From Synechococcus sp. CB0101 (GTDB lineage: Bacteria > Cyanobacteriota > Cyanobacteriia > PCC-6307 > Cyanobiaceae), in contig NZ_CP039373.1 in the NCBI RefSeq assembly GCF_000179235.2, forward strand, positions 1,829,860 to 1,893,859: a stretch of 64,000 bases of DNA, in the 5' to 3' direction. A program made the translations under genes and the position numbers. Positions 34,911 through 48,934 of this stretch are shown here, one piece after another. A model generated the notes under the pieces. That model worked only from the letters and a program-made list of their open reading frames with translations, did not search any database and was not told the DNA's origin. The stretch's first letter is position 1, and every line of letters begins with the position of its first letter.

Positions 34911-35237
34911 GTGCCTCCATCCACCCCCGCGGCGACTCAACCACATCCGCGAGCTCTCCCCCGCAGCTTCTTCTGCCGCCTCGCTGAGCTGGTGGCGCCT
35001 GAACTGATTGGCTGCCTGCTGGTGAAGCGCAAAGCACATGGCGACTTGCTGTGGGGCGTGATTGTGGAAACGGAGGCGTATTCCCAGGAGGAGCCTGCTT
35101 GCCACGGTTATCGCCGCCGCACCCCCAGCAACGAAACGCTCTTTGGTGAGCCAGGGCGCTTTTACGTCTATGTGAGCTATGGCATCCACCACTGCGTGAA
35201 GCGAGCCCGTCTCTCAAAGACCCCAGGCTGGGCTTGA
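34911..35237 (+). pseudogene. Left remnant of mpg (3-methyladenine DNA glycosylase, native 5' half)
   Basis: GTG 34911 begins a frame of 108 residues that matches the intact mpg at 48386-48934 through [39 protein letters not shown] and HCV, then runs into unrelated residues ([12 protein letters not shown]) and stops. The switch falls at position 35200. The C-terminal half of the enzyme is missing here and is found 13.4 kb away. This is the original 5' end of the host gene, with its own start and presumably promoter, cut off by integration of the element on its right. Confidence 0.9.
35187..35200 (+). repeat. Attachment repeat 1 (left end of E1, in mpg)
   Basis: CACCACTGCGTGAA is the last sequence shared by all three mpg copies before they diverge (also at 42345 and 48551). 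A longer 26-nt identical block lies 35 bp upstream (35127-35152; 42285-42310; 48491-48516). The true crossover point lies in or upstream of the repeat. Confidence 0.8.
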
Positions 35238-35296
35238 GATTTCAGCGGCTGCCCCAGGTCTCCCAGCCAACTCCCAAGCCACCGCCCCAAAAAACT

Positions 35297-35387: not shown

Positions 35388-36024
35388 CTGGTGTCAGCAC
35401 CTGCACAGCACCTTGCTCAAGCCGCCCTCGCTTCGCAACAACAACGGCAGCCTGCAGGTGCGGGTGCGGATTGATGGAAAGGATGCCTTCATCAATCGCC
35501 TGGGTCGCTGGAGTGACCCTGTAGCGGTGGCACGAGCACAAGCCATCAGTGCCCAGATATGGAGCGACTACCAGCAGGGCACCTTTGACCGCTCCCTGAT
35601 GGCGTATCAGCCCCTCATCAACGGCAAGGAGGTGGGGCTGCTGGAAGCCGTGAAGGCACGGGCAGAGGAGAAGCGCCAGGCTGCCGCTATCCACGCCTAC
35701 AGGGTGCTGAAGCGCTATGGGAAGCCCATCCGCAACAGGAGTGACGCAGAGGCGTTTCTGGCGTGGTTACGGGAAGAGGGGCTGAGCGACTGCACCATCG
35801 CTGGTTTGATGACCCACTATCGCCAGTGCTCAGGCGGCAACCGCCACCTGTTTTCCCACAAGCTGAAGTGGCAGCGGCGGTCAGTGCAGAGCGATGTGCT
35901 GAGCGTGGAAGAAATCCAGGTGGTGCTGAGTGACCTGGAGACCAACGAGCCTTGGTATTACCCCCTGTTTTTGCTCTGGCTCAGCACCGGTGACTGCCAG
36001 GAAAGATGACGCCTCTGCTGCTGT

Positions 36025-37149
36025 TCAAGCAGTCATCGTCAACGTAGCCGGTGTGGATTCAATTTCTGTAGATGGTGGGTTGATCCAAACCACTTCTGGC
36101 TGACGCCAACATCGGATTGCTCGTGACCAGCGCCGTGGATTGAGCTGGCGGGCTTTTTCGTACACGACAGCGCGATGCCGACAGATCTCCACGGCCTGTC
36201 CGCCGTGACGTTGCTGAGGCGTCACGAACTTGATGCCGCTGTGGCGGTGCCGATGGTTGTACCAGTCCACAAACGACGCCACCCACTGGCAGGCCTCGTC
36301 CTTGCTGGCAAATGGCCGTCTCGGGTAATCAGGCCGGTACTTCGCAGTGCGGAACAGCGATTCGGAGTAGGGGTTGTCGTTGCTGACGCGCGGACGCGAG
36401 AACGACCTGAGCACGCCCAGCTCCTCCAGCCTGCTTTCCAGCGTGGCTGCACGCATGGCATTGCCGTTGTCGGCGTGGAGGATCAACGGCTGCTTGCGTC
36501 CCCGACTGATTCGCTCGCGCAGGCACGCCCTGATCACCAGATCGGCTGCAATGACTGGGTCTTCTCGCTCAGCGACATCCCACGCCACGACCTTGCGGCT
36601 CCAGACGTCGATCACCAGATAGAGGTACAGCCACACACCTCGCACGGTGGTGGGCAGGTAGGTGATGTCCCAGCTCCAAACCTCGTTTGGACCAGCAGCC
36701 CTGAGCCGTGGCACTGGGCGCGGTTCCTGTGGTGGCCGAGCTCGGCCCCGCCGGTGAACCTGACCGTGAGCATGGAGAACTCGGTAAAAGCTGCGCTCTG
36801 AGCCGATATACAACCCGCGATCCGCCAGCACCGGCACGATCTGCCCAGGCGGCAGCGCCGCAAATTCCGGCTCATTGCACGTGAGCAGGATCCGTTGGCG
36901 TTCCTCCTCACTGAGGCGGTGAGTCACATGCCGGAAGCTGCCCTTGCGACGATCGACACCATCACCGTCTCCAGCAAACTGACGGCGCCAGCGCTGCAAC
37001 GTCGACAGGCCCACGCCCAGAAGCAGAGCCAGCTCACGAGCTCGGGCACCGTTGATGATGCCCTCGTCGAGGATCTCCAGGGCCTTCCGGCGATCGTCAG
37101 GCGACGTCAATCGTCCCCGTCCTCTCCCCAGAAGGCCTGAATCTTTTTT
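36025..37149 (-). CDS. IS3-family transposase OrfB (DDE integrase part)
   Basis: Reading from the frameshift site, the frame gives a helix-turn-helix (GARARELALLLGVGLSTLQR), an HTH/linker region, and an rve integrase core with DDE residues in VWSWDITYLP, LILHADNGNAMRA and NPYSESLFRTAKYRP, followed by FVDWYNHRHRHSGIKFVTPQ. It is made as a fusion with OrfA by -1 frameshifting. No in-frame start of its own is convincing. It appears intact. Confidence 0.85.
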   Translation of the reverse strand, partial: KKDSGLLGRGRGRLTSPDDRRKALEILDEGIINGARARELALLLGVGLSTLQRWRRQFAGDGDGVDRRKGSFRHVTHRLSEEERQRILLTCNEPEFAALPPGQIVPVLADRGLYIGSERSFYRVLHAHGQVHRRGRARPPQEPRPVPRLRAAGPNEVWSWDITYLPTTVRGVWLYLYLVIDVWSRKVVAWDVAEREDPVIAADLVIRACLRERISRGRKQPLILHADNGNAMRAATLESRLEELGVLRSFSRPRVSNDNPYSESLFRTAKYRPDYPRRPFASKDEACQWVASFVDWYNHRHRHSGIKFVTPQQRHGGQAVEICRHRAVVYEKARQLNPRRWSRAIRCWRQPEVVWINPPSTEIESTPATLTMTA

Positions 37150-37613
37150 GAGGCGATCAGCAGCGCAGCCGCCTCCGCCAGAGCTTTCTCCTTGCGGCGC
37201 AGCTCCTGTTTGAGCCGCTTGATCTCCTTTTGATCCTGCGCGCGGAGCCGTTCCAGCTCCTTCTGCTCTTTCAAGGTGAGCACTGGTTTCTCGTTGGCAT
37301 CCTGGGATGCCTGACGCCACCGCTCCACCTGCTCCGGATAGAGACCCCGCTCTCGGCAGTAGGCACTGAGCTCGGTGGCGTTGAGCCCAGCAGTCTCGAG
37401 CACCACCGTGAATTTGTCTGTGGCACTCCAGCCCTCAGGATCCTTCTCGGATGCCGGCACCACCTCTCCCTGCAACCGCCAGGCCTTCCTCCAGTTGTAG
37501 AGGGTGACCACGTGAATGCCCAGCTCTGCTGAGATCTGGGCCACGCTCTGCCGCATGGGCGGACTCATCCGCTTTCTCGCGTCAGCTTTGACGGCCTCGC
37601 TGTAGCGACGCAT
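37107..37613 (-). CDS. IS3-family transposase OrfA
   Basis: 168 residues: an N-terminal helix-turn-helix (SVAQISAELGIHVVTLYNWR), a second one (LNATELSAYCRERGLYPEQV), and a leucine-zipper-like coiled coil (EQKELERLRAQDQKEIKRLK) ending just after the slippery site (IASKKIQAFWGEDGDD). OrfA binds the IS ends and is fused to OrfB by frameshifting. Confidence 0.85.
   Translation of the reverse strand: MRRYSEAVKADARKRMSPPMRQSVAQISAELGIHVVTLYNWRKAWRLQGEVVPASEKDPEGWSATDKFTVVLETAGLNATELSAYCRERGLYPEQVERWRQASQDANEKPVLTLKEQKELERLRAQDQKEIKRLKQELRRKEKALAEAAALLIASKKIQAFWGEDGDD
37143..37149 (-). other. Programmed -1 frameshift heptamer A AAA AAG
   Basis: On the minus strand the OrfA codons TCA AAA AAG contain A-AAA-AAG. 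Slipping back one base continues as AAA AAA GAT in the OrfB frame (LKKDSGLLGRG). This is the classic IS3-family slippery sequence joining OrfA and OrfB. Confidence 0.8.
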
Positions 37614-38177
37614 AGATCTGCTCCATCAAGCCCCCTGCTTGAAAAATGGTCGGGATGGAGAGGCGTCAACTTTGCTGGCAGAGGGGGCACTGGGCTGCGA
37701 AATGCCGAAATCAGGGGGCTGACCTGGGATTGCATCCGCTTGGAGCAGGGAGAGGTGCTGGTGATGAAGAGCCTGCGGCGTGATGGGTATTCCAGTGGGA
37801 GGGTTGAGTGGGCACCCACCAAGACGGGCAAGGAGCGAGTGGTGCCGCTGATGCCCCAGGTGCTGGAGACCTTGAAAGAGCACCAGCAGCAGATGGATCA
37901 GCTGAGCATCTACGACCCGTATGGGCTGGTATTCGTCACGCCCACCAGCCACAGCAACGTCTATGACCACTTGTTGGGTCGTGTTTGGCATCGCAGCCTG
38001 CAGCGGTGTGGATTGAAGCCGAGGAGGCTGTATGCCCAGCGTCATAGTTTTCTGTCTCATGCTCTTGCGATGGGCAATTCGCCAGCTGATTTGGCAGCGG
38101 CGGCAGGTCACTCCACCAAGATGCTCCTGGATACCTATGCCAAACCAACAGGCAGATTGAAGATGCCGACTTGGTAA

Positions 38178-38750
38178 TCACCACAACTCACCAGTGCGGT
38201 AACGACGTTGCTGCTCACGCTGCTTCATCAGATGGTTCAGGCGCGACTGGTGACCTGCCTGCTGCTGCGGTGAGCGCATCGGCGGCAACTTGGTGACCCT
38301 GGGGGCATGAGGCGTTGAGGGCGGTGCTGAAGGCATTACAGGGCGCTGAACTTGTTGGTGAAATCGCTCAGGTCGAAACTCAGGTGGATTGCCCAGAACC
38401 CCTCGCTTCTTCAGCAGGGTCTCCAGTGATGGGCAGTTGGTCTGGAAACCAGTGGTTCCATGCTTCTCTCGCAGGCGCACGTATTCAAAGTGCACCAGCG
38501 GGAACTGTGCTTCCAGAAACTTCTCAAACGATTGATGCTCACCACACTTGTGGCACTTGAAGTTCCAAGCGTTGCCAACGGGATACAGGTAACCCTTGGC
38601 GTCAGATGGCGCGAGAGTCTTCCCTTTGCTGTTCTTGCCGCTGTATTGACAATAAGGGCACTGGAAGCGAAGAGCATTCGCTTTGCGTTCAAAAAGAGGT
38701 AATGCAGTTGAGATGTAGTCAATAAAGGTCTCTTCGATGGCTTTGGTCAT
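38178..38750 (-). CDS. Zinc-ribbon protein like the N-terminal domain of T4-type primase (gp61), E1 copy
   Basis: 190 residues. Residues about 27-75 hold a four-Cys zinc ribbon, RFQCPYCQ...NFKCHKCG, with AKGYLYPVGNAW between and SFEKFLEAQFPLVHFEYVRL after it. This order closely resembles the start of phage T4 gp61 primase (FRCPVCG...ARGWYYG...CYNC...YLKEF.P.LYREYIF). There is no TOPRIM or primase catalytic domain; the rest is Pro/Gln-rich and ends with KLPPMRSPQQQAGHQSRLNH, a tail conserved in the E2 paralogue. It is convergent with the integrase (stops 1 bp apart). A role in element replication or in interfering with phage replication is inference. Confidence 0.75.
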   Translation of the reverse strand: MTKAIEETFIDYISTALPLFERKANALRFQCPYCQYSGKNSKGKTLAPSDAKGYLYPVGNAWNFKCHKCGEHQSFEKFLEAQFPLVHFEYVRLREKHGTTGFQTNCPSLETLLKKRGVLGNPPEFRPERFHQQVQRPVMPSAPPSTPHAPRVTKLPPMRSPQQQAGHQSRLNHLMKQREQQRRYRTGELW

Positions 38751-38778
38751 TTGTCATATTGCTTGTCTAGATGTCGAT

Positions 38779-38807
38779 ATTATATCACAGATTTTCTCAT
38801 GTGTAAA
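38779..38807 (-). promoter_or_regulatory. Sigma-70 promoter of the E1 gp61-like gene
   Basis: Minus strand: -35 TTTACA (38802-38807), 17-bp spacer, -10 TATAAT (38779-38784). The same boxes and spacing occur in E2 (44382-44410), although surrounding bases differ. Confidence 0.75.
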
Positions 38808-38824
38808 TCTTGAAAAGCATAAAT

Positions 38825-38846
38825 AACCTTGTAGAGGTTTGATCAA
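38825..38846 (+). promoter_or_regulatory. Operator-like repeat 1 of E1
   Basis: Begins AACCTTGTAGAGGTTT and ends GATCAA. It matches the repeat at 38915 in 19 of 22 positions and contains an AACCT/AGGTT dyad. It lies 18 bp beyond the minus-strand -35 box, the same place as its E2 counterpart at 44428. Confidence 0.65.
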
Positions 38847-38884
38847 GATGGTGACTCGATAAAATCCAGATAAACACAGGATGC

Positions 38885-38913
38885 TTGACAAACTATAAAG
38901 AAGCCTGTATAAT
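38885..38913 (+). promoter_or_regulatory. Perfect consensus sigma-70 promoter of the E1 small-gene operon
   Basis: Plus strand TTGACA (38885-38890), 17-bp spacer, TATAAT (38908-38913). It would give a leader of about 375 nt before the gene at 39295. E2 has the identical boxes and spacing at 44478-44506. Confidence 0.8.
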
Positions 38914-38914
38914 G

Positions 38915-38936
38915 AACTTTGTAGTGGTTTCATCAA
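38915..38936 (+). promoter_or_regulatory. Operator-like repeat 2 of E1
   Basis: Begins AACTTTGTAGTGGTTT and ends CATCAA; starts 1 bp after the plus-strand -10 box, so a bound protein would cover the start point. It is a near copy of the repeat at 38825, 90 bp away. Confidence 0.65.
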
Positions 38937-39294
38937 ATGATCTTGAGTTGATTCATTGATGATTCCCAATGACCACTCGAAAGAACCCCAAAAGACTCAA
39001 GACAAAATCAAACAGATTCTATTCGCAACTTGATTCAAGACACACGCAAAAGAAACTCAACTGAAACTTGATTCAAGATTCATCAGCAATCAATAAGATC
39101 TCTTGATTTAATCCTCAAGTATTTATCCTTGATTCATTCAAGAGAAATCCTGGTGGAGTCATGAGTCAAGATTTAAATCTATTATTAAATAACATCCAGA
39201 AGTTCATCTTAAATGATGACCACAAGAAAATAGATGATCCTCGCCAAGGATGAATCATGAATAAATAGATTCAGGTTCTATTCTAAATGTATAG
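38937..39294 (+). other. AT-rich leader/intergenic region of E1 with palindromes
   Basis: No gene is supported here. It holds two copies of the palindrome CTTGATTCAAG (39029-39039, 39067-39077), a third expanded form (39128-39142), and TCCTCAAGTATTTATCC (39112-39128), which is repeated exactly in E2 at 44611-44627. It may be a structured leader, operator cluster or origin. Confidence 0.5.
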
Positions 39295-39477
39295 ATGAAG
39301 TCTATTCCAAGAGTAAAGCAAATCAGTTTCAAAGAAAAAGAGCATCCATTTCTCCTCCAGCAAATGGAGGATCTGATGGATCTATACAAAATGGATATCA
39401 GTGGTCTCTACAAGACCCTGCTGCGAGAAAAGCATCAAGAGGTCTTCGGGTCTCCATCCAGCAGGTGCATCAGATGA
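39295..39477 (+). CDS. Small element protein, QISFK family, E1 copy
   Basis: 60 residues. KQISFKEKEHPFLLQQMEDL and MDLYKMDISGLYKTLLREKH are shared with the 57-residue E2 protein at 44786 (about half identical). The second half reads as a helix-turn-helix or ribbon-helix-helix-like pair of helices, so DNA binding is plausible but unproven. Its stop overlaps the next gene's ATG (ATGA). No strong ribosome-binding site is seen. Confidence 0.7.
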   Translation: MKSIPRVKQISFKEKEHPFLLQQMEDLMDLYKMDISGLYKTLLREKHQEVFGSPSSRCIR

Positions 39478-39635
39478 CCACCATCAGGATTCATCTGCAT
39501 CCTGTCGAGGCAGAGATGCTCAAGGAGGTTCAGAAGGGCAACAGGCGCTTCCGTGATCTGGAGACCCTCCTGCTGGGTCTGATTCGTGAGGAATACGCCA
39601 AAACGCCTGCTGGTCGCAACAAGGGGGCGTCATGA
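39474..39635 (+). CDS. Small ribbon-helix-helix-like protein, E1 copy
   Basis: 53 residues, MTTIRIHLHPVEAEMLKEVQ then GNRRFRDLETLLLGLIREEY. An initial beta strand followed by two helices is the ribbon-helix-helix plan of small repressors. E2 has a 44-residue counterpart at 44956 in the same position. It overlaps both neighbours by ATGA, so the three E1 genes form a coupled operon. It is the best candidate for the protein that binds the operator repeats; that is inference. Confidence 0.7.
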   Translation: MTTIRIHLHPVEAEMLKEVQKGNRRFRDLETLLLGLIREEYAKTPAGRNKGAS

Positions 39636-40135
39636 CTCACCGTGAACTGATGGTGGAGGAGTTCCTCAAGAAGCAGGCAGCGGCAAAGCGGGTGCTGGTG
39701 GCAATCAAGAAGGCGCGGAAGCGCGAGACCCTGCCCAGTGCCCTCCAGATCGCTGATGCCCCTCTGGCGATCGAGGAAGAACACTCCTTCTACATCTTCC
39801 GCACTGACACCAATGCTGTGCTCGCCAGGGGCATTCAGGGGTTTGAGGCGGCGAAGATCAGAGCAAACGAACTGAGGAAATCCCACGGGTTGAAGTGGGA
39901 TGAGGTGAAGTTCAAAGCAGAGCGTGGGAAGCAGTCGGGTGCCGCTGGTTCATCTGGTGGATCAACGGCAACAGCACCCAAGAAGCAGTTCGGGGTCAGT
40001 CGTGATGGCAAGACCTTCACCAATGCTCGCGGGGAGACAAACAGGATTGATTACGCCAGACGCTACAACCCATCAAAAGGGCGAAGATTCAGGGGATATA
40101 CAGACTCTCAGGGCAACTATCACGATATTGACTGA
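39632..40135 (+). CDS. Unknown element protein
   Basis: 167 residues. A charged N-terminal helix region (VEEFLKKQAAAKRVLVAIKK), a middle domain with EEHSFYIFRTDTNAVLARG, a Gly/Ser/Ala linker (about 115-130), and a basic, aromatic C-terminal segment (FGVSRDGKTFTNARGETNRI, RRYNPSKGRRFRGYTD). I recognise no family. The basic tail could bind nucleic acid. It is the third gene of the ATGA-coupled operon; E2 has no counterpart, so it is cargo or an E1-specific accessory. Confidence 0.65.
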   Translation: MTHRELMVEEFLKKQAAAKRVLVAIKKARKRETLPSALQIADAPLAIEEEHSFYIFRTDTNAVLARGIQGFEAAKIRANELRKSHGLKWDEVKFKAERGKQSGAAGSSGGSTATAPKKQFGVSRDGKTFTNARGETNRIDYARRYNPSKGRRFRGYTDSQGNYHDID

Positions 40136-42050: not shown

Positions 42051-42368
42051 TCTCCACCCACCCCCGCCCAAGCCACTCCCATAGCCACCACGACCACCCA
42101 AGACTTCCCAGCTCTCCCCCGCAGCTTCTTCTGCCGCCCCGCCGAGCAGGTTGCCCCTGACCTCATCGGCTGCCTGTTGGTCAAGCGCCAGCCCTCAGGC
42201 GAGCTGCTCTGGGGCGTGATTGTGGAAACGGAGGCGTATTCGCAGGAGGAGCCCGCCTGCCACGGCTATCGCCGCCGCACCCCCAGCAACGAAACGCTCT
42301 TTGGTGAGCCAGGGCGTTTTTATGTCTATGTGAGCTATGGCATTCACCACTGCGTGAAGGCGGCCTGA
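42051..42368 (+). pseudogene. Middle remnant of mpg 5' half (right end of E1)
   Basis: From the stop at 42048 the frame is open and encodes [40 protein letters not shown] and on to [12 protein letters not shown], then stops after three unrelated residues. It matches the 5' half of the intact mpg, most closely over its first 110 bp. No ATG, GTG or TTG opens it; an ATA stands where an ATG would be expected in both this copy and the next. It marks the E1/E2 junction. Confidence 0.85.
42345..42358 (+). repeat. Attachment repeat 2 (E1/E2 junction)
   Basis: CACCACTGCGTGAA, identical to the repeats at 35187 and 48551. Copies 2 and 3 share 20 identical bases ending here. Repeat-to-repeat distances are 7158 bp and 6206 bp. 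Confidence 0.8.
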
Positions 42369-42452
42369 CTCCAAGGGACATCTGCCGCGGCCTGATTTCT
42401 GAGCGACTCGGCGGGGTCAAAAGCCAATGCTCAAGCCGCTTCCCAAGAATTT

Positions 42453-42571: not shown

Positions 42572-43648
42572 ATGAGGAAAGCACCATCGCTAAGGAGCAA
42601 CAACGGGGCGCTGCAGGTCCGTGTGCGCCTTGATGGCCGTGATGTCTTTATCAACCGTCTGGGGCGCTGGGATGACCCTGTGGCAGTGGCGAGAGCACAG
42701 GCGATTAGCGCCCAGATATGGAGCGACTACCAGGAGGGGACGCTGGACCGCTCCCTGCTGCGATACACCCCGCTGGTGAAGGGTCAGCAGGTGGGACTGC
42801 TGGAGGCGATGCAGGCACTGGCCGACAGCACCCATAACGCCCGCTGCATCCATGCCCTGAGGGTGGTCAAGGGATACGGCAAGCCGCTCAGAAACGGCAG
42901 TGATGTTGAGGACTTTGTGCGGTGGATGCAGGCCAAGCCGCTGGCCAACCGCACCATTGCTGGGATTCTGCAGGTGTGCCGCAACGCCAACCCCAGCAAC
43001 CGCCAACTATTCACCTACCGCCTGCCCCTCAAGCAGAGGTCCGTGCAAAGCGACGTGCTGAGCATTGAAGAGATTGGCCTGGTGCTCAGGGACATGAAGG
43101 AGCACGAGAGCTGGTTTTACCCACTCTTCCTGCTGTGGATGAGCACGGGGCTACGGAATGCCGAGATTCGCGGCCTGACGTGGGATTGCATCCGCTGGAG
43201 CGACAAGGAGCTGCTGGTCTGTAAGTCCCTGAGACGGGATGGGTATTCCAGCGGCAAGGTGGTCTGGGCAACGACCAAGACAGGCAAGGAGCGTGTCGTG
43301 CCCCTGAGTGATGCCGTGATGGAGACGCTGCTGGACCACCAATGCCAGATGCAGGAGCAGGGCTTGTATCAGCGAGAGGGTCTGGTCTTCTTGTCACCTG
43401 ACACCTACACCAACGTCTACGACCACCTGCTGGGTCGTGTGTGGCATCGGTCCTTGAAGCGGTGCGGCCTGAAACCACGGCGGCTGTATGCCCAACGTCA
43501 CTCCTTCCTCAGTCACGCTTTGGCGATGGGGAATTCACCAGCAGACCTGGCGCAGATTGCTGGTCACTCCACTGAGATGCTGCTGAAGACCTATGCCAAA
43601 CCAACAGGCCGCGTGAAGTTGCCGACTTGGCCTGAAATGGAAACGTGA
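42572..43648 (+). CDS. Tyrosine recombinase/integrase of E2
   Basis: 358 residues. An N-terminal arm-binding domain (APSLRSNNGALQVRVRLDGR, DDPVAVARAQAISAQIWSDY) is followed by a SAM-like core-binding domain and a catalytic domain with Arg in GLRNAEIRGLTWDCIRW, Lys in TKTGKERVVPL, Arg in LYAQRHSFLSHALA, GHST and the nucleophile Tyr in LLKTYAKPTGR. It should integrate and excise the element at mpg, and may act on E1 in trans. It starts at ATG 42572 after the left-end repeats. Confidence 0.92.
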   Translation: MRKAPSLRSNNGALQVRVRLDGRDVFINRLGRWDDPVAVARAQAISAQIWSDYQEGTLDRSLLRYTPLVKGQQVGLLEAMQALADSTHNARCIHALRVVKGYGKPLRNGSDVEDFVRWMQAKPLANRTIAGILQVCRNANPSNRQLFTYRLPLKQRSVQSDVLSIEEIGLVLRDMKEHESWFYPLFLLWMSTGLRNAEIRGLTWDCIRWSDKELLVCKSLRRDGYSSGKVVWATTKTGKERVVPLSDAVMETLLDHQCQMQEQGLYQREGLVFLSPDTYTNVYDHLLGRVWHRSLKRCGLKPRRLYAQRHSFLSHALAMGNSPADLAQIAGHSTEMLLKTYAKPTGRVKLPTWPEMET

Positions 43649-43727: not shown

Positions 43728-44354
43728 TCAGTCCTGCAGATATGGAGCAGCAGGGTCCCTCTGTCTGAGTTTCTGATGCTGCTTGACCTTGTGCGCCAGT
43801 CGAGCAGAGCACCCTGCCTGCTGCTGTGGGGTCAGGCGAGGGAGTTTTGTGATGGCTGGTTGAATTGGTCCTGAAATCACTTGATTCTGGCTGGTTGCAG
43901 CACTATCTCCAGCAGCCTTGCAATCAGTTTTCTCAATTCCACTACCCGACTCCACCAACTCGCCAGCAAATGCTGCTGTGACCCTTCCAGAGACCCTCTG
44001 AGCGGCATTGGAGAGGGTGGGTGCATTGGTGCCCTTCCCTGTCAGTCCTAACCCATCACGCTCTGCCACATACTCCAGGAAGACTGATGGGAAATGGTCT
44101 TCTAAAAAGTTGTGAAACTGCTTGCCAGTCCCGCAGCGGTGACACTTGAAGTTTAGGGCATTACCGTTGCTGTAGAAGAATCCCTTGCATCCACTTGGAG
44201 TCACCGTGCGACCTCTATGGTTTTTGCTGCTCAACTGGCAATAAGGGCACTGGAAACGGTAGGCATTGAGTTGCCTGCTGAAGTGCGGCAGCAACCCACT
44301 GACTTGATTTAAATACTTTTCTTCTATGCTTGAAATGCTCAGGCTTGATGTCAT
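43728..44354 (-). CDS. Zinc-ribbon protein like the N-terminal domain of T4-type primase (gp61), E2 copy
   Basis: ATG 44354 gives 208 residues. SISSIEEKYLNQVSGLLPHF leads to the four-Cys ribbon RFQCPYCQ...NFKCHRCG with CKGFFYSNGNAL between and FHNFLEDHFPSVFLEYVAER after. The C-terminal KLPRLTPQQQAGCSARLAHK matches the E1 paralogue while the middle differs. As in E1 it lacks any primase catalytic domain and faces the integrase, 79 bp apart. The likely origin is phage replication machinery; its present role is unknown. Confidence 0.75.
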   Translation of the reverse strand: MTSSLSISSIEEKYLNQVSGLLPHFSRQLNAYRFQCPYCQLSSKNHRGRTVTPSGCKGFFYSNGNALNFKCHRCGTGKQFHNFLEDHFPSVFLEYVAERDGLGLTGKGTNAPTLSNAAQRVSGRVTAAFAGELVESGSGIEKTDCKAAGDSAATSQNQVISGPIQPAITKLPRLTPQQQAGCSARLAHKVKQHQKLRQRDPAAPYLQD

Positions 44355-44381
44355 GGCGATATCTGCTTTCTTTCTTTGAGG

Positions 44382-44410
44382 ATTATAGCATGAATTCTCC
44401 AATGTGTAAA
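44382..44410 (-). promoter_or_regulatory. Sigma-70 promoter of the E2 gp61-like gene
   Basis: Minus strand TTTACA (44405-44410), 17-bp spacer, TATAAT (44382-44387), matching E1 in boxes and spacing. The start point would be about 20 nt before ATG 44354. Confidence 0.75.
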
Positions 44411-44427
44411 TCCTCAAATGCATAAAT

Positions 44428-44449
44428 AACCTTGTATAAGGTTGACGAA
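44428..44449 (+). promoter_or_regulatory. Operator-like repeat 1 of E2
   Basis: AACCTT-GTAT-AAGGTT is a perfect 6-4-6 inverted repeat followed by GACGAA. It sits 18 bp beyond the minus-strand -35 box, exactly as in E1. Confidence 0.65.
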
Positions 44450-44477
44450 AGTAGTGGCCACTGGTTTCTGTTGGGAC

Positions 44478-44506
44478 TTGACAGAAACCCTAAAAACATA
44501 TATAAT
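44478..44506 (+). promoter_or_regulatory. Perfect consensus sigma-70 promoter of the E2 small-gene operon
   Basis: Plus strand TTGACA (44478-44483), 17-bp spacer, TATAAT (44501-44506). The leader to the gene at 44786 would be about 270 nt. Confidence 0.8.
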
Positions 44507-44529
44507 AACCTTGTTGGTGCTTCAATCAA
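44507..44529 (+). promoter_or_regulatory. Operator-like repeat 2 of E2
   Basis: Begins AACCTTGTTGGTGCTT and ends CAATCAA; directly follows the plus-strand -10 box, as in E1. It is 79 bp from repeat 1. Confidence 0.55.
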
Positions 44530-44785
44530 GTATCTGTTGATTCTTCTGGTTGATGCCCTGCTGATATTCAATAGAGATTCAAAAAGAAACTCGATAGATG
44601 CTGGCTTGAGTCCTCAAGTATTTATCCCTAAAAACTTCTGGTCTTTATCCATCAAATTTCAAAAGAATACCCAAAGAAATATCAATCCGCGATTCATTTA
44701 AGACCGCATTGAATCAGAGGCCAGAATTCACCCAGAAAACTCATGATAAATAGTTAAAAATCAAATCAAGAAATCACCAGGAAAT
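44530..44785 (+). other. AT-rich leader of the E2 small-gene operon
   Basis: No gene is supported. It contains the inverted repeat CTTGAGTCCTCAAG (44605-44618) overlapping the 17-nt block TCCTCAAGTATTTATCC (44611-44627) that is identical in E1 (39112-39128). Confidence 0.5.
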
Positions 44786-44959
44786 ATGTATTGCAGAAGC
44801 AAGGTCCAGCAAATTAGTTTTAAGTGGAGAGAGTATCCAGTATTGATGTCACAGCAGAAAAAGTTGATGGAATACTACGGAATGGATATGAGCGGACTCT
44901 ATAAGCATCTTCTCAGAGAAAAGCACTCTCAACTCTTCTCGCCCTCAGTCGCCCCATGA
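44786..44959 (+). CDS. Small element protein, QISFK family, E2 copy
   Basis: 57 residues, MYCRSKVQQISFKWREYPVL, MSQQKKLMEYYGMDMSGLYK and HLLREKHSQLFSPSVAP. It aligns with the E1 protein at 39295 over nearly its whole length, which supports both as real genes. AGGA lies 7 nt before the ATG. The stop overlaps the next ATG (ATGA). Confidence 0.72.
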   Translation: MYCRSKVQQISFKWREYPVLMSQQKKLMEYYGMDMSGLYKHLLREKHSQLFSPSVAP

Positions 44960-45090
44960 AGACCTACCGCATTCAACTGACTGCAGAAGAGCAGAAGAAA
45001 CTGGAGCAGGTCCTCAAGCGCCTCAGGCAGCGTGATGTGCAGTCATTTTTCTTGGAGGCGTTGCATGAGCAGTGGTTGAAGTTGGGCTAA
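44956..45090 (+). CDS. Small ribbon-helix-helix-like protein, E2 copy
   Basis: 44 residues: MKTYRIQLTAEEQKKLEQVL then RQRDVQSFFLEALHEQWLKL. A starting beta strand and two helices fit a ribbon-helix-helix repressor. It is coupled by ATGA to the previous gene and corresponds in position and plan to the E1 gene at 39474. Confidence 0.7.
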   Translation: MKTYRIQLTAEEQKKLEQVLKRLRQRDVQSFFLEALHEQWLKLG

Positions 45091-46210: not shown

Positions 46211-47296
46211 ATGGCACATTTAACTTGCATCGAATCCTTCTCAGGGCCTGGCGGCATGTCACTTGGCCTTGAGAGGGCAGGATTTCAGCTTCTTTATGCT
46301 TTTGATAATGATGCACCTTCTGTTGTCACTCATAATCTGAATCTCAATGGTAAATGCTTTCAGCTAGATGCTCGCCAGGTTGATTCTGTTGAATTGCTGG
46401 CTCAATGTGGCTTATCTGTTGGTGATTTAGATTTATTCAGCGGGGGGCCACCTTGCCAGGGTTTTTCAAAGCAGAGGCGAGGAGCTCATCTAGGAGATGA
46501 CCGAAATCTTCTTGTGCTCGAATATCTGCGCCTGGTCCAAGAGTTAAAACCAAAGTCCTTTCTTTTTGAGAATGTTGCTATATTTGGCCAAAAGAGGGGT
46601 CTGGCCTTTCTGGCTGCAATGAAGGAGGCTCTTTCTGCATACAGACTGTATCCAAACTTCTTTAACTCTGCAGACTTTGGTTTAGCGCAAACAAGGCACA
46701 GATTTATGCTTGTTGGCATTAGGCGAGATATAGGCTTTCGATTTTTGTCCCCGCCTCCCACCGTCCAGAAATGGGCAACGGTCAGGGATGTTATTGGCGA
46801 CATGCCGCCCCCGCCTTCGGACTGCTCCGAGCATCCTGACTTCTTCAATCATGCCCAAACTAAGATAACTAAACGCAATATCGAAAGATTTTCGTATGTC
46901 CCCCAGGGCGGAGGATGGCAAGACATACCTTGGGATTTAAGGCTGGATTGTCACAAGACGGCTGACATTAAAAGTGGAGGTTGGCCAGATGTTTATGGCC
47001 GCTTATCTTGGGACGGACAGTGCCCAACCATTACTGGTGGATTTGATAGTTTTACTAGAGGGCGTTATGGTCATCCTGAGCAGAATCGTGCGCTTACCCC
47101 AAGGGAGGCCGCTCGACTGCAGGGATTTCCAGACAACTTCATTCTTACTGGGAATCGTCATCAGGTAAGGCATCAAATTGGCAATGTTGTCCCCCCGCCT
47201 CTCGCCGAGGCTGTCGGGAAGCAAATCGCAGATTGTCTAAACGGCAAATCGCAACCTGTTATGCCTGATTTTGAGCAGCTTCCGCTTGCTGCTTAA
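46211..47296 (+). CDS. DNA (cytosine-5-)-methyltransferase
   Basis: 361 residues with the C5 methylase motifs in order: I ESFSGPGGMSLGLERAG, IV GGPPCQGFSKQRR (catalytic Cys), VI FLFENV, VIII FGLAQTRHRFMLVG, a target-recognition region (about 200-290), IX REAARLQGFPDNF and X HQIGNVVPPPLAEAVG. It protects host DNA from the convergent restriction enzyme. GC is lower than the host. The recognition sequence cannot be read from the protein. Confidence 0.93.
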   Translation: MAHLTCIESFSGPGGMSLGLERAGFQLLYAFDNDAPSVVTHNLNLNGKCFQLDARQVDSVELLAQCGLSVGDLDLFSGGPPCQGFSKQRRGAHLGDDRNLLVLEYLRLVQELKPKSFLFENVAIFGQKRGLAFLAAMKEALSAYRLYPNFFNSADFGLAQTRHRFMLVGIRRDIGFRFLSPPPTVQKWATVRDVIGDMPPPPSDCSEHPDFFNHAQTKITKRNIERFSYVPQGGGWQDIPWDLRLDCHKTADIKSGGWPDVYGRLSWDGQCPTITGGFDSFTRGRYGHPEQNRALTPREAARLQGFPDNFILTGNRHQVRHQIGNVVPPPLAEAVGKQIADCLNGKSQPVMPDFEQLPLAA

Positions 47297-48146
47297 ACCG
47301 TTGTAGGTGCTCCTCTAGCCCGTCGAGACTCAATAATGATATCCCCCCTTTTGTGACCCTTCCTAGCCCAGATGGTATGTCTCCGTAAAATGCATGTGTA
47401 ACATTTTGAGATAGGCACATTTGATAGAGAATCCACTGGTCTGGTGTGCATACTTCGCGGGCATTGTCTTGGCCAGAGCGCTGCATTTCGCTTAGTGCTA
47501 CTAGGCAGCTTGTGTATTTTTGCGGCTCGAGCACATCGAGAATTCTTTGTTGGGTAAATACTTGCGATATTCTTTCTCTTGTCGTTATTTTTGCTGCTAG
47601 CACTAGTCCAGTTGTCCTCGCCTGGTTGGTGATTGAGATATCGGTCGAGACTTTGATGCCAGCGCTCGTTGGGACGAATGACCCGTATGCAAATTCTGGG
47701 CCCAGCTTTTCGCCGATGAATACTCTTATGACTCTCTCGAAGAATGTGCCAGGTGTCTTCCTGCTTGATGGCGAGTATATATCAATAAAGATTGCGGCGG
47801 AGGTTGCGAGCGAGTAGATTGACGCGTTTGCTGACTCAGCGCTCTCCAGCCCAGATTTATTTTGTGGCCATGCGGCTGGTGATTGGTGCCTTGGGTCCCA
47901 AATCTCAATATTGATAGGCCTGCTCGTTTCGCCTCGGTTGTCTATTAGCAGATACTTCTTATTGCTGTATCTGCATTCTTTGAATGTTGCGCCCTCGATG
48001 GCCTTGCTGTGGCACTCGTTTGCTGTCCTCGTTATCGCGGAGAGCGCTTCCTGGTGATTTGCCTCTTTGATGTGGGTGTCTATGGCTTTAATTGCCGATT
48101 GGAGGTCCAAGTGCGATTGCTCGTCTTCATGCTTTGTAGCTCTCAA
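47259..48146 (-). CDS. Putative type II restriction endonuclease
   Basis: 295 residues, convergent with the C5 methyltransferase and overlapping its 3' end by 38 bp. TPGTFFERVIRVFIGEKLG and KVSTDISITN...LVLAAKITTRERISQVFTQQ fit a PD-(D/E)XK nuclease core (Asp in TDIS, Lys in AAK) as seen in several type II enzymes. The call depends on this pattern and on the pairing with a methylase. Confidence 0.75.
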   Translation of the reverse strand: MRATKHEDEQSHLDLQSAIKAIDTHIKEANHQEALSAITRTANECHSKAIEGATFKECRYSNKKYLLIDNRGETSRPINIEIWDPRHQSPAAWPQNKSGLESAESANASIYSLATSAAIFIDIYSPSSRKTPGTFFERVIRVFIGEKLGPEFAYGSFVPTSAGIKVSTDISITNQARTTGLVLAAKITTRERISQVFTQQRILDVLEPQKYTSCLVALSEMQRSGQDNAREVCTPDQWILYQMCLSQNVTHAFYGDIPSGLGRVTKGGISLLSLDGLEEHLQRFKQQAEAAQNQA

Positions 48147-48385
48147 TCGTGTCTCGGGCCATGGTCTCTCCAGCGGTTGCGGCCTGCCTAACGATTTCTT
48201 GTTGGATTGCTGCCCTGGTCCGTTTCCCTATGCCAATACCGCATAAAACCGCTCTTTCTCAATAGCCTCCGCCCAACCTCGCCCAAGCCACTCCCATAGC
48301 CATAGAAGTCTTCCCAGCTCTCCCCCGCAGCTTCTTCTGCCGCCCCGCCGAGCAGGTTGCCCCTGACCTCATTGGCTGCCTTCTG

Positions 48386-48934
48386 GTGAAACGCCAACCC
48401 GATGGCGCGTTGCTGTGGGGCGTGATTGTGGAAACAGAGGCGTATTCGCAGGAGGAGCCTGCTTGCCACGGCTACCGCCGCCGCTCACCAAGCAACGAAA
48501 CGCTCTTTGGTGAGCCTGGGCGTTTCTATGTGTATGTGAGCTACGGCATTCACCACTGCGTGAATGTGGTGACGCACCGGGCCGAGTGGGCCAATGGTGT
48601 GTTGCTGCGTGCCGTGGCGCTGCCGGATGAGCCCGAGCGGGTGGCTGCCGGACCGGCTTTGTTGGCGCGGCGATTTGCCATCGATCGCAGCCACGACAGG
48701 CGCCCTGTGGATCCGGCCGAAGGGCTGTGGCTGGCGCCGAAACCTGCAGCTCTCGCCGCCTGGGGGCCTGACAGCCTGGTGCAGACCACCCGCATCGGCA
48801 TCACGCAGGGGCAAGACCTGCCGTGGCGTTGGTATCTGCGGTCAAGCCGCAGCGTGAGCAAACGGGCCCGGGGCGATCGCTCACCGGCGCCGGCTGACGC
48901 TCTGCGCGTGGCCGCGCTGCCGATGGGCTTCTAG
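48386..48934 (+). CDS. mpg: 3-methyladenine DNA glycosylase, reconstituted at the right end of E2
   Basis: AAG/MPG family. The catalytic Glu lies in [20 protein letters not shown], then [20 protein letters not shown] and the DNA-binding C-terminal part ([20 protein letters not shown]). The enzyme excises alkylated purines. From 48386 (GTG) it has 182 residues, but coding similarity begins earlier, near 48300 ([20 protein letters not shown]), without any ATG, GTG or TTG after the stop at 48263. The N-terminal part is element-derived; the part after 48564 is host. Expression and start therefore depend on the element, and function is uncertain. Confidence 0.8.
48551..48564 (+). repeat. Attachment repeat 3 (right end of E2, inside mpg)
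   Basis: CACCACTGCGTGAA inside the reconstituted mpg frame, followed by the native sequence TGTGGTGACG. Recombination with repeat 1 would remove both elements and restore the native gene. Confidence 0.8.

Follow-up and report, generated by a model that had tools for sequence, protein, structure and literature searches.

Stand-alone gp61-type primase heads in tandem integrative elements of Synechococcus sp. CB0101 and their possible action on the cyanophage helicase

Introduction

What use would a mobile element of a cyanobacterium have for the front end of a phage primase? The question is raised by a window of 64,000 nucleotides from Synechococcus sp. CB0101 (the whole stretch of DNA that was analysed; contig NZ_CP039373.1, positions 1,829,860 to 1,893,859), in which two elements, here called E1 and E2, each encode a small protein resembling the N-terminus of gp61, the primase of T4-like phages. 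A first-pass annotation had proposed that the protein serves element replication as a primase accessory, or acts as a decoy against T4-like cyanophages. These phages are major killers of picocyanobacteria. The integrative elements of Prochlorococcus and Synechococcus known as tycheposons have a tyrosine recombinase and often a small serine recombinase.

The domain layout of T4 gp61 provides the frame for the comparison (PMC10359460). The zinc-ribbon core reads the single-stranded DNA template, Arg51 holds the 5′-triphosphate of the primer, and HIM1 (residues 74–97) binds the gp41 helicase at its N-terminal helical hairpins. The catalytic NTL/TOPRIM part starts at residue 115, and a second gp41-docking helix, HIM2, forms the extreme C-terminus. 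HIM1 is described as not conserved among primases and possibly unique to the T4 primosome (PMC10359460).

Results

Two tandem elements in a glycosylase gene

The site at which E1 and E2 lie in tandem is a methylpurine-DNA glycosylase gene. Incomplete 5′ copies of it are found at the left end of E1 (34952–35250, plus strand) and at the E1/E2 junction (42110–42408, plus), and the complete gene stands at the right end of E2 (5′ part at 48316–48614, plus; gene end at 48934). The copies cease to match after GGCATYCACCACTGCGTGAA. The gene is single-copy in 12 of the 15 other genomes of the genus that have a match; extra 5′ pieces in two congeneric genomes (G115:C1:1317503 and 1331201; G177:C27:96727) may mark further elements at the same site. 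E1 and E2 show a satellite-type integrase and attachment-site duplication. The tRNA genes of the window (32065 and 50838) both lie outside them.

The tyrosine recombinase gene of E2 is intact (42572–43648, plus). That of E1 is split by an insertion sequence (rve transposase and HTH_Tnp_1 ORF; 36025–37613, minus) into an N-terminal part (35413–36009, plus) and a C-terminal part (37740–38177, plus), whose stop abuts the stop of the head gene; E1 is probably immobile unless the E2 recombinase acts in trans. The cargo of E2 comprises a C5 cytosine DNA methyltransferase (46211–47296, plus) and a type II restriction enzyme (47259–48146, minus; PADLOC REase_II, E 3.6e-21), which form a convergent type II restriction-modification pair (46211–48146). 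A second tandem pair with recombinase, head and the partner protein RHH1 (see below) is located beside uvrA in the same genome (L055; G000:C1:1588400–1608300); its heads are identical except at a single residue. Each tandem is at or beside a DNA repair gene, the glycosylase gene in one case and uvrA in the other.

The heads correspond to the N-terminus of gp61

Both head genes are intact and lie on the minus strand; the E1 gene (38178–38750) encodes 190 amino acids and the E2 gene (43728–44354) 208. A longer reading of E2 from the ATG at 44423 would put the start codon upstream of the promoter predicted for the gene (−10, 44387–44382), which makes the start at 44354 likelier. The two proteins are 42% identical and share the KLP..PQQQAG tail, in agreement with the paralogy proposed in the first-pass annotation. 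In hmmscan searches of the PHROGs, E1 matched phrog_47, ‘DNA primase’ (E 2.1e-11, profile positions 31–133 of 947), and phrog_451 (E 3.7e-11), and E2 matched the same two families (E 1.1e-7 and 1.9e-14 respectively). phrog_451 carries no function name; syn9 gp61 matches it with residues 3–328 of 328 at 1e-138, which identifies it as the family of full-length cyanophage gp61. All of these matches are confined to the part of the profile that represents the gp61 N-terminus, and in E1 they end at about residue 108–116 of the 190. No Pfam family scored above its cut-off for either protein. Searching 50,697 phage records by tblastn returned 834 records for E1 and, at E ≤ 10, 917 for E2, with cyanophage gp61 genes on top; the best match of E2 was to a cyanophage gp61 N-terminus (residues 10–112, 46% identity, E 3e-17), and the best phage matches of the heads come from T4-like cyanophages. 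E1, E2 and several cyanophage gp61 proteins also share a G(T/L)TGKGxN stretch after HIM1. The plasmids searched contained no copy of the heads.

A DnaG-type ribbon was considered and found no support. DnaG ribbons have a Cys-His-Cys-Cys ligand set; the ribbon of E1 has the spacing CPYC...C..C of the C4 type, and no CHC2 zinc-binding family appeared among the Pfam matches at E ≤ 10 for E1 or E2. Neither head has a PADLOC match, and a known defence family was likewise discarded.

An AlphaFold model of E1 (pLDDT 74) was built from five aligned cyanobacterial proteins, with phage sequences left out. It has a C4 zinc ribbon at residues 27–74 (38529–38672, minus), two helices (75–82 and 84–96) that align with HIM1 of T4 gp61 (residues 75–98; 38457–38528, minus), a disordered linker, and, at residues 161–185, a C-terminal helix that is basic and conserved and includes the KLP..PQQQAG tail (38196–38270, minus). 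This predicted helix has no recognisable similarity to the gp61 C-terminus, where HIM2 sits. Foldseek found two PDB matches at E ≤ 0.001, both of them T4 gp61 in the primosome (E 2.5e-4 to 8dvf_H), and no unrelated entry at that threshold. The VIA comparison placed residues 3–98 of the model on residues 5–97 of gp61 with Z 9.7 and 2.5 Å over 89 residues; other proteins (Twinkle, DnaG ribbons, frataxin folds) reached Z 5.7 or less. When a profile of seven stand-alone proteins was compared with the PDB, gp61 was the sole significant match (E 3.4e-6), so that structure prediction and profile comparison both lead to gp61 and to no unrelated family.

Four ribbon genes were the only matches of syn9 gp61 in the host genome, each within residues 2–101 of 328; the catalytic remainder of gp61 (TOPRIM) was not found there with this query. 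E1 and E2 are the N-terminal zinc ribbon and following helix-turn-helix of the T4/cyanophage gp61 primase. Given the domain layout of T4 gp61, they keep the template-reading and docking head without the enzyme. The original claim that only a gp61-like ribbon and the next helix are present, with no catalytic domain, is borne out by profile matches that stop early and by PHROG, tblastn, sequence-profile and fold matches that are all restricted to the gp61 N-terminus.

Stand-alone heads are a fixed part of the elements

A profile of 21 stand-alone proteins matched 47 of 400 Cyanobiaceae-type genomes, belonging to 14 of 59 genera. The matches in two of these (G342 and G389) are full-length gp61 of 329–346 amino acids, which leaves stand-alone heads in 45 of 400. 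In a sample of the phylum (386 genomes, 142 genera), the only matches outside the Cyanobiaceae-type family were seven weak, ribbon-only ones (E about 1e-4, in frames of about 300 amino acids). A contig search with an alignment as the query found members in a Vulcanococcus MAG, Cyanobium usitatum Tous, Synechococcus sp. 8F6 and Prochlorococcus MIT 0701; a contig search of genomes with E2 alone as the query gave no match. The naming of the sampled family as Cyanobiaceae follows from these members. The 64 regions assembled hold 69 matches, namely 58 stand-alone ORFs (90–299 amino acids), eight fragments of under 90 amino acids and three full-length gp61.

The usual partner of the head is RHH1, a small ribbon-helix-helix-like protein encoded in E1 (39295–39477, plus) and in E2 (44786–44959, plus). 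Of the 58 stand-alone head ORFs, 51 have RHH1 at a distance of up to 2.6 kb, in 43 cases in divergent orientation, and 47 have a tyrosine or serine recombinase no further than 5 kb away; among the 42 heads flanked by 5 kb or more on each side, 37 have such a recombinase. None of 20 control windows from 14 of the same genomes had RHH1, recombinase or ribbon; the models behind these linkage counts derive from the element regions. That the head is a fixed part of the element, as first suggested, is supported by these figures, and the linkage to RHH1 and recombinase rules out a cargo gene.

RHH1 is followed by a second small protein in both elements (E1, 39465–39635, plus, of cluster cl5, common to four loci; E2, 44956–45090, plus), and in E1 by the operon protein cl6 (39632–40135, plus), present in seven of the first 21 loci. 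No relative of RHH1 or cl6 was found in phages. A wider search found RHH1 in 69 of 300 genomes, in some places without a recognisable head, which makes RHH1 the more widespread partner. Twenty of the RHH1 places without a recognised head were retrieved, and six of these have another CxxC protein opposite (L153 and L156–L160), which suggests that primase-like heads opposite RHH1 may be exchangeable. In the remaining places no CxxC protein was recognised opposite, and one (L162) gave no RHH1 match on re-scanning. The six are small zinc-ribbon proteins other than gp61 (L153:5292–5729, L156:5469–5954, L157:5396–5776, L158:6469–6858, L159:6510–6899 and L160:6455–6844); the L158 protein has a weak match to phrog_1139, ‘DNA primase’ (E 1e-3, profile positions 25–78), so that one group of them faintly resembles another family of phage primases.

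A diversified family that retains the docking segment

Residues were compared in 57 stand-alone proteins and 19 gp61; the sequences are related and not independent, and the counts are descriptive. The four ribbon cysteines are retained in 53 of the 57, the hydrophobic residues at T4 positions 77/78 in 56, and the HIM1 tyrosine (Y89 in T4) in 50. By comparison, the GDS signature is present in 2/57 stand-alone proteins versus 19/19 gp61, Arg51 in 2/57 versus 18/19 (Arg or Lys in 29/57), and Asn67 in 6/57 versus 19/19. Many stand-alone proteins have a typical TG..NC motif after HIM1 (TG in 25 of 57, NC in 21). The E1/E2 clade is intermediate: seven of its eight members have Arg or Lys at position 51 and aromatic residues at 53 and 66, and none has GDS or Asn67. 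E1 and E2 themselves keep most of the DNA-reading residues, so that these two copies have not lost DNA reading. The seven proteins without the HIM1 tyrosine (L043, L054, L104–L106, L114 and L133) mostly form one group, and most also lack the second helix of HIM1.

Values of dN/dS ranged from 0.05 to 0.44 across 13 pairs, a sign of purifying selection. Between E1 and its nearest relative the ratio is 0.13 overall, with 0.08 for the head, 0.11 for the tail and 0.33 for the linker. The stand-alone heads are a diversified family in its own right and not a recent truncation or pseudogene, since most loci are intact, dN/dS is low and the family is separate and diverse. The word ‘truncated’ in the first-pass annotation is thus correct as to the missing catalytic part and misleading as to a broken gene. 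In a FastTree tree of 76 heads (112 alignment columns, modest support values), the 19 gp61 proteins cluster together, with L042/L133/L043 as the adjoining group; the shorter proteins fall outside this cluster, as does the E1/E2 group. Recent capture from a sampled cyanophage was rejected on this topology, within the limits of its modest support; an old split would fit the tree better.

Several individual copies were recorded. In Synechococcus sp. 8F6 an E2-like head gene is split by about 1.2 kb with transposase-like ORFs (L036:8449–10558). Two 35-amino-acid ORFs that match only the HIM1 region lie downstream of an intact head at L123 (10842–10949 and 12000–12107) and are either decayed or HIM1-only copies. 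Identical divergent heads of 146 amino acids occur far apart in one genome (L139:9826–10266 and L140:9838–10278; G000:C1, 1336397 and 2189152), and only one of the two adjoins RHH1 and recombinase pieces. Among the phages, gp61 of metaG-MbCM1 (L169) and S-SSM5 (L165) is annotated as two pieces or N-terminally shortened, which may reflect a frameshift, a split gene or a fault in the annotation.

The divergent intergenic region

Head and RHH1 of E1 are separated by an AT-rich region (38751–39294, 33% GC) that is conserved in relatives. It contains two sigma70-like promoters, TTTACA-17-TATAAT towards the head (38779–38807, minus) and TTGACA-17-TATAAT towards RHH1 (38885–38913, plus), and the same divergent pair is present in the intergenic region of E2 (44355–44785; promoters at 44410–44382, minus, and 44478–44506, plus). 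One promoter of the E1 pair is a 12/12 match. As the scan gives no more sites than shuffled sequences do, the weight of the promoters rests on their repetition in E1 and E2 and on the alignment. The 39 divergent intergenic regions measured have a median length of 398 bp and a mean GC content of 34%, against 50% for the loci, and the region is conserved among six close elements. Repeats exceeded a Markov control (p < 0.05) in 10 of the 39. In E1, the leader of some 370 bp that separates RHH1 from its promoter holds four CTTGATTCAA-like repeats, 26–38 bp apart (39029–39137), which look iteron- or operator-like. Palindromic AACCTTGTAGAGGTTT-like sites adjoining the promoters are candidate operators. 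Ribbon-helix-helix proteins have a strand followed by two helices and bind DNA as dimers. The RHH1 monomer was modelled with two helices and no strand; its Foldseek matches include Arc, CdbA and CopG, all weak at E ≥ 2.7. RHH1 may bind the intergenic region.

Discussion

The evidence suggests, but does not prove, that E1, E2 and related elements use the head to capture or obstruct the replication proteins of phages that enter the cell. In our preferred reading, to which we tentatively assign a probability of about 0.48, the head is a helicase-docking primase mimic that acts on gp41 of T4-like cyanophages, either as a decoy or as a recruiter. The protein would consist of the gp61-type zinc-binding domain and HIM1, a disordered linker and the conserved basic C-terminal helix. 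Upon infection by a T4-like cyanophage, the HIM1 surface of the head would dock on the N-tier of the phage gp41 ring, and a ring so occupied could not prime there, because no catalytic domain follows HIM1. As a decoy, the head would poison lagging-strand synthesis of the phage; as a recruiter, it would bring the phage helicase to the element and allow the element to replicate. RHH1, encoded opposite, would act on the AT-rich stretch that separates it from the head gene, as a switch or as a partner that binds DNA.

The relationship to the cyanophage gp61 N-terminus, found by PHROG and tblastn searches and again in a fold match made without phage input, is consistent with docking on gp41. The HIM1 hydrophobics and tyrosine are kept in most members and the primer-handling residues GDS, Arg51 and Asn67 are mostly lost, which adds weight to the decoy version and makes an accessory to ordinary priming less likely. 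Linkage as a core gene, low dN/dS, a range that in our samples is confined to the Cyanobiaceae-type family apart from the seven weak matches, and a host genome with no gp61 remainder also agree with this reading. Several points weigh against it: the seven of 57 proteins that have lost the HIM1 tyrosine, mostly together with the second HIM1 helix; the DNA-reading residues retained in E1 and E2; and the many other HIM1 contact residues that differ from T4, in a motif stated not to be conserved among primases (PMC10359460). A competitor with HIM1 only might also be weak, as gp61 binds gp41 through HIM2 as well (PMC10359460). IMG/VR viral contigs were scanned three times, with three alignments and short patterns that could miss members, and gave no head, which counts against frequent packaging; RHH1 and cl6 are likewise without phage relatives.

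The target may be the host helicase rather than that of the phage. The genome has one strong DnaB_C match and three weaker ones, all with coordinates outside E1 and E2. The single strong match can be counted for a phage target as well as for a host one. DnaB also has an N-tier (PMC10359460), and the head might dock on it, or help DnaG, at an origin of the element's own in the AT-rich intergenic region, after excision and in phage-free cells. The low GC content and conservation of that region, and the replicon-like module that it forms with head and RHH1, would agree with such a host-directed replication factor. The domain is nevertheless of the phage C4 type and closest to cyanophage gp61, HIM1 is possibly unique to the T4 primosome (PMC10359460), and only about a quarter of the intergenic regions have repeats that beat the control; we consider a host-directed role unlikely.

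The divergent arrangement with RHH1 and the promoter pair common to E1 and E2 would also be expected if the ribbon had been reused as a nucleic-acid-binding factor that controls transcription or excision, together with RHH1, at the divergent promoters. Drift of the primer-handling residues and the persistence of members without the second HIM1 helix point the same way. Such a regulator would explain neither the retention of the HIM1 tyrosine and hydrophobics in most members nor the G(T/L)TGKGxN stretch that E1 and E2 have in common with several cyanophage gp61 proteins, and we judge it improbable. A non-functional phage primase remnant carried along with the element is hardly credible, and the selection data already speak against it. 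Broken or interrupted copies, such as the eight short fragments and the transposase-split gene of L036, form a minority; most loci are intact and under constraint, position and partner are constant, and the search of the entire host genome with syn9 gp61 gave no catalytic remainder.

Returning to the gp41-docking mimic, the heads can be set beside T4 and cyanophage gp61 (phrog_47 and phrog_451), with which they have in common the N-terminal C4 ribbon and HIM1 helix-turn-helix and a fold over about 90 residues. They differ in lacking NTL/TOPRIM, in their C-terminal tail, in having mostly lost GDS, Arg51 and Asn67, and in being encoded on host chromosomes inside mobile elements. The PICMI phage satellites of Vibrio have a similar plan, with a size of about 6 kb, an integrase, a small regulator, a primase-related gene and no capsid remodelling genes; their prim gene encodes a putative primase needed for full replication (PMC10803314). 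Here a head alone takes that place, the hosts are different, and dependence on a phage is putative. PLE satellites of phage ICP1 depend on phage replication proteins, a trait that resembles the proposed mechanism, but they have RepA_N and an iteron origin, and the available text of that report describes no gp61 head (PMC7145576).

The closest described elements are the tycheposons and a picocyanobacterial group with integrases beside tRNA-Cys/Phe (PMC10187409). The latter are likewise integrative, and several of our loci have a tRNA-Cys nearby; E1 and E2 differ in lying inside a glycosylase gene, and the accessible part of that description does not mention a head (PMC10187409). Tycheposons are defined as elements that have a tyrosine recombinase and integrate at tRNA genes (PMC10872708); E1 and E2 have the recombinase and fall outside this definition by their integration in the glycosylase gene. 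The literature searched, of which coverage was incomplete, gave no account of stand-alone primase heads in elements of this kind.

The fullest form of the proposal, that these elements carry a severed primase docking head as their central weapon against T4-like cyanophages or as a tool for replicating at their expense, in an exchangeable slot opposite RHH1, seems doubtful to us as a whole; if true, it would define a satellite class that parasitises phage primosomes by means of single-domain primase mimics. The head would be a natural dominant-negative probe of the gp41–gp61 contact resolved in T4, and the idea is therefore directly testable with purified proteins. If the phage primosome is indeed targeted or exploited, the elements would represent a widespread, small and so far unnamed type of satellite or defence in the Cyanobiaceae.
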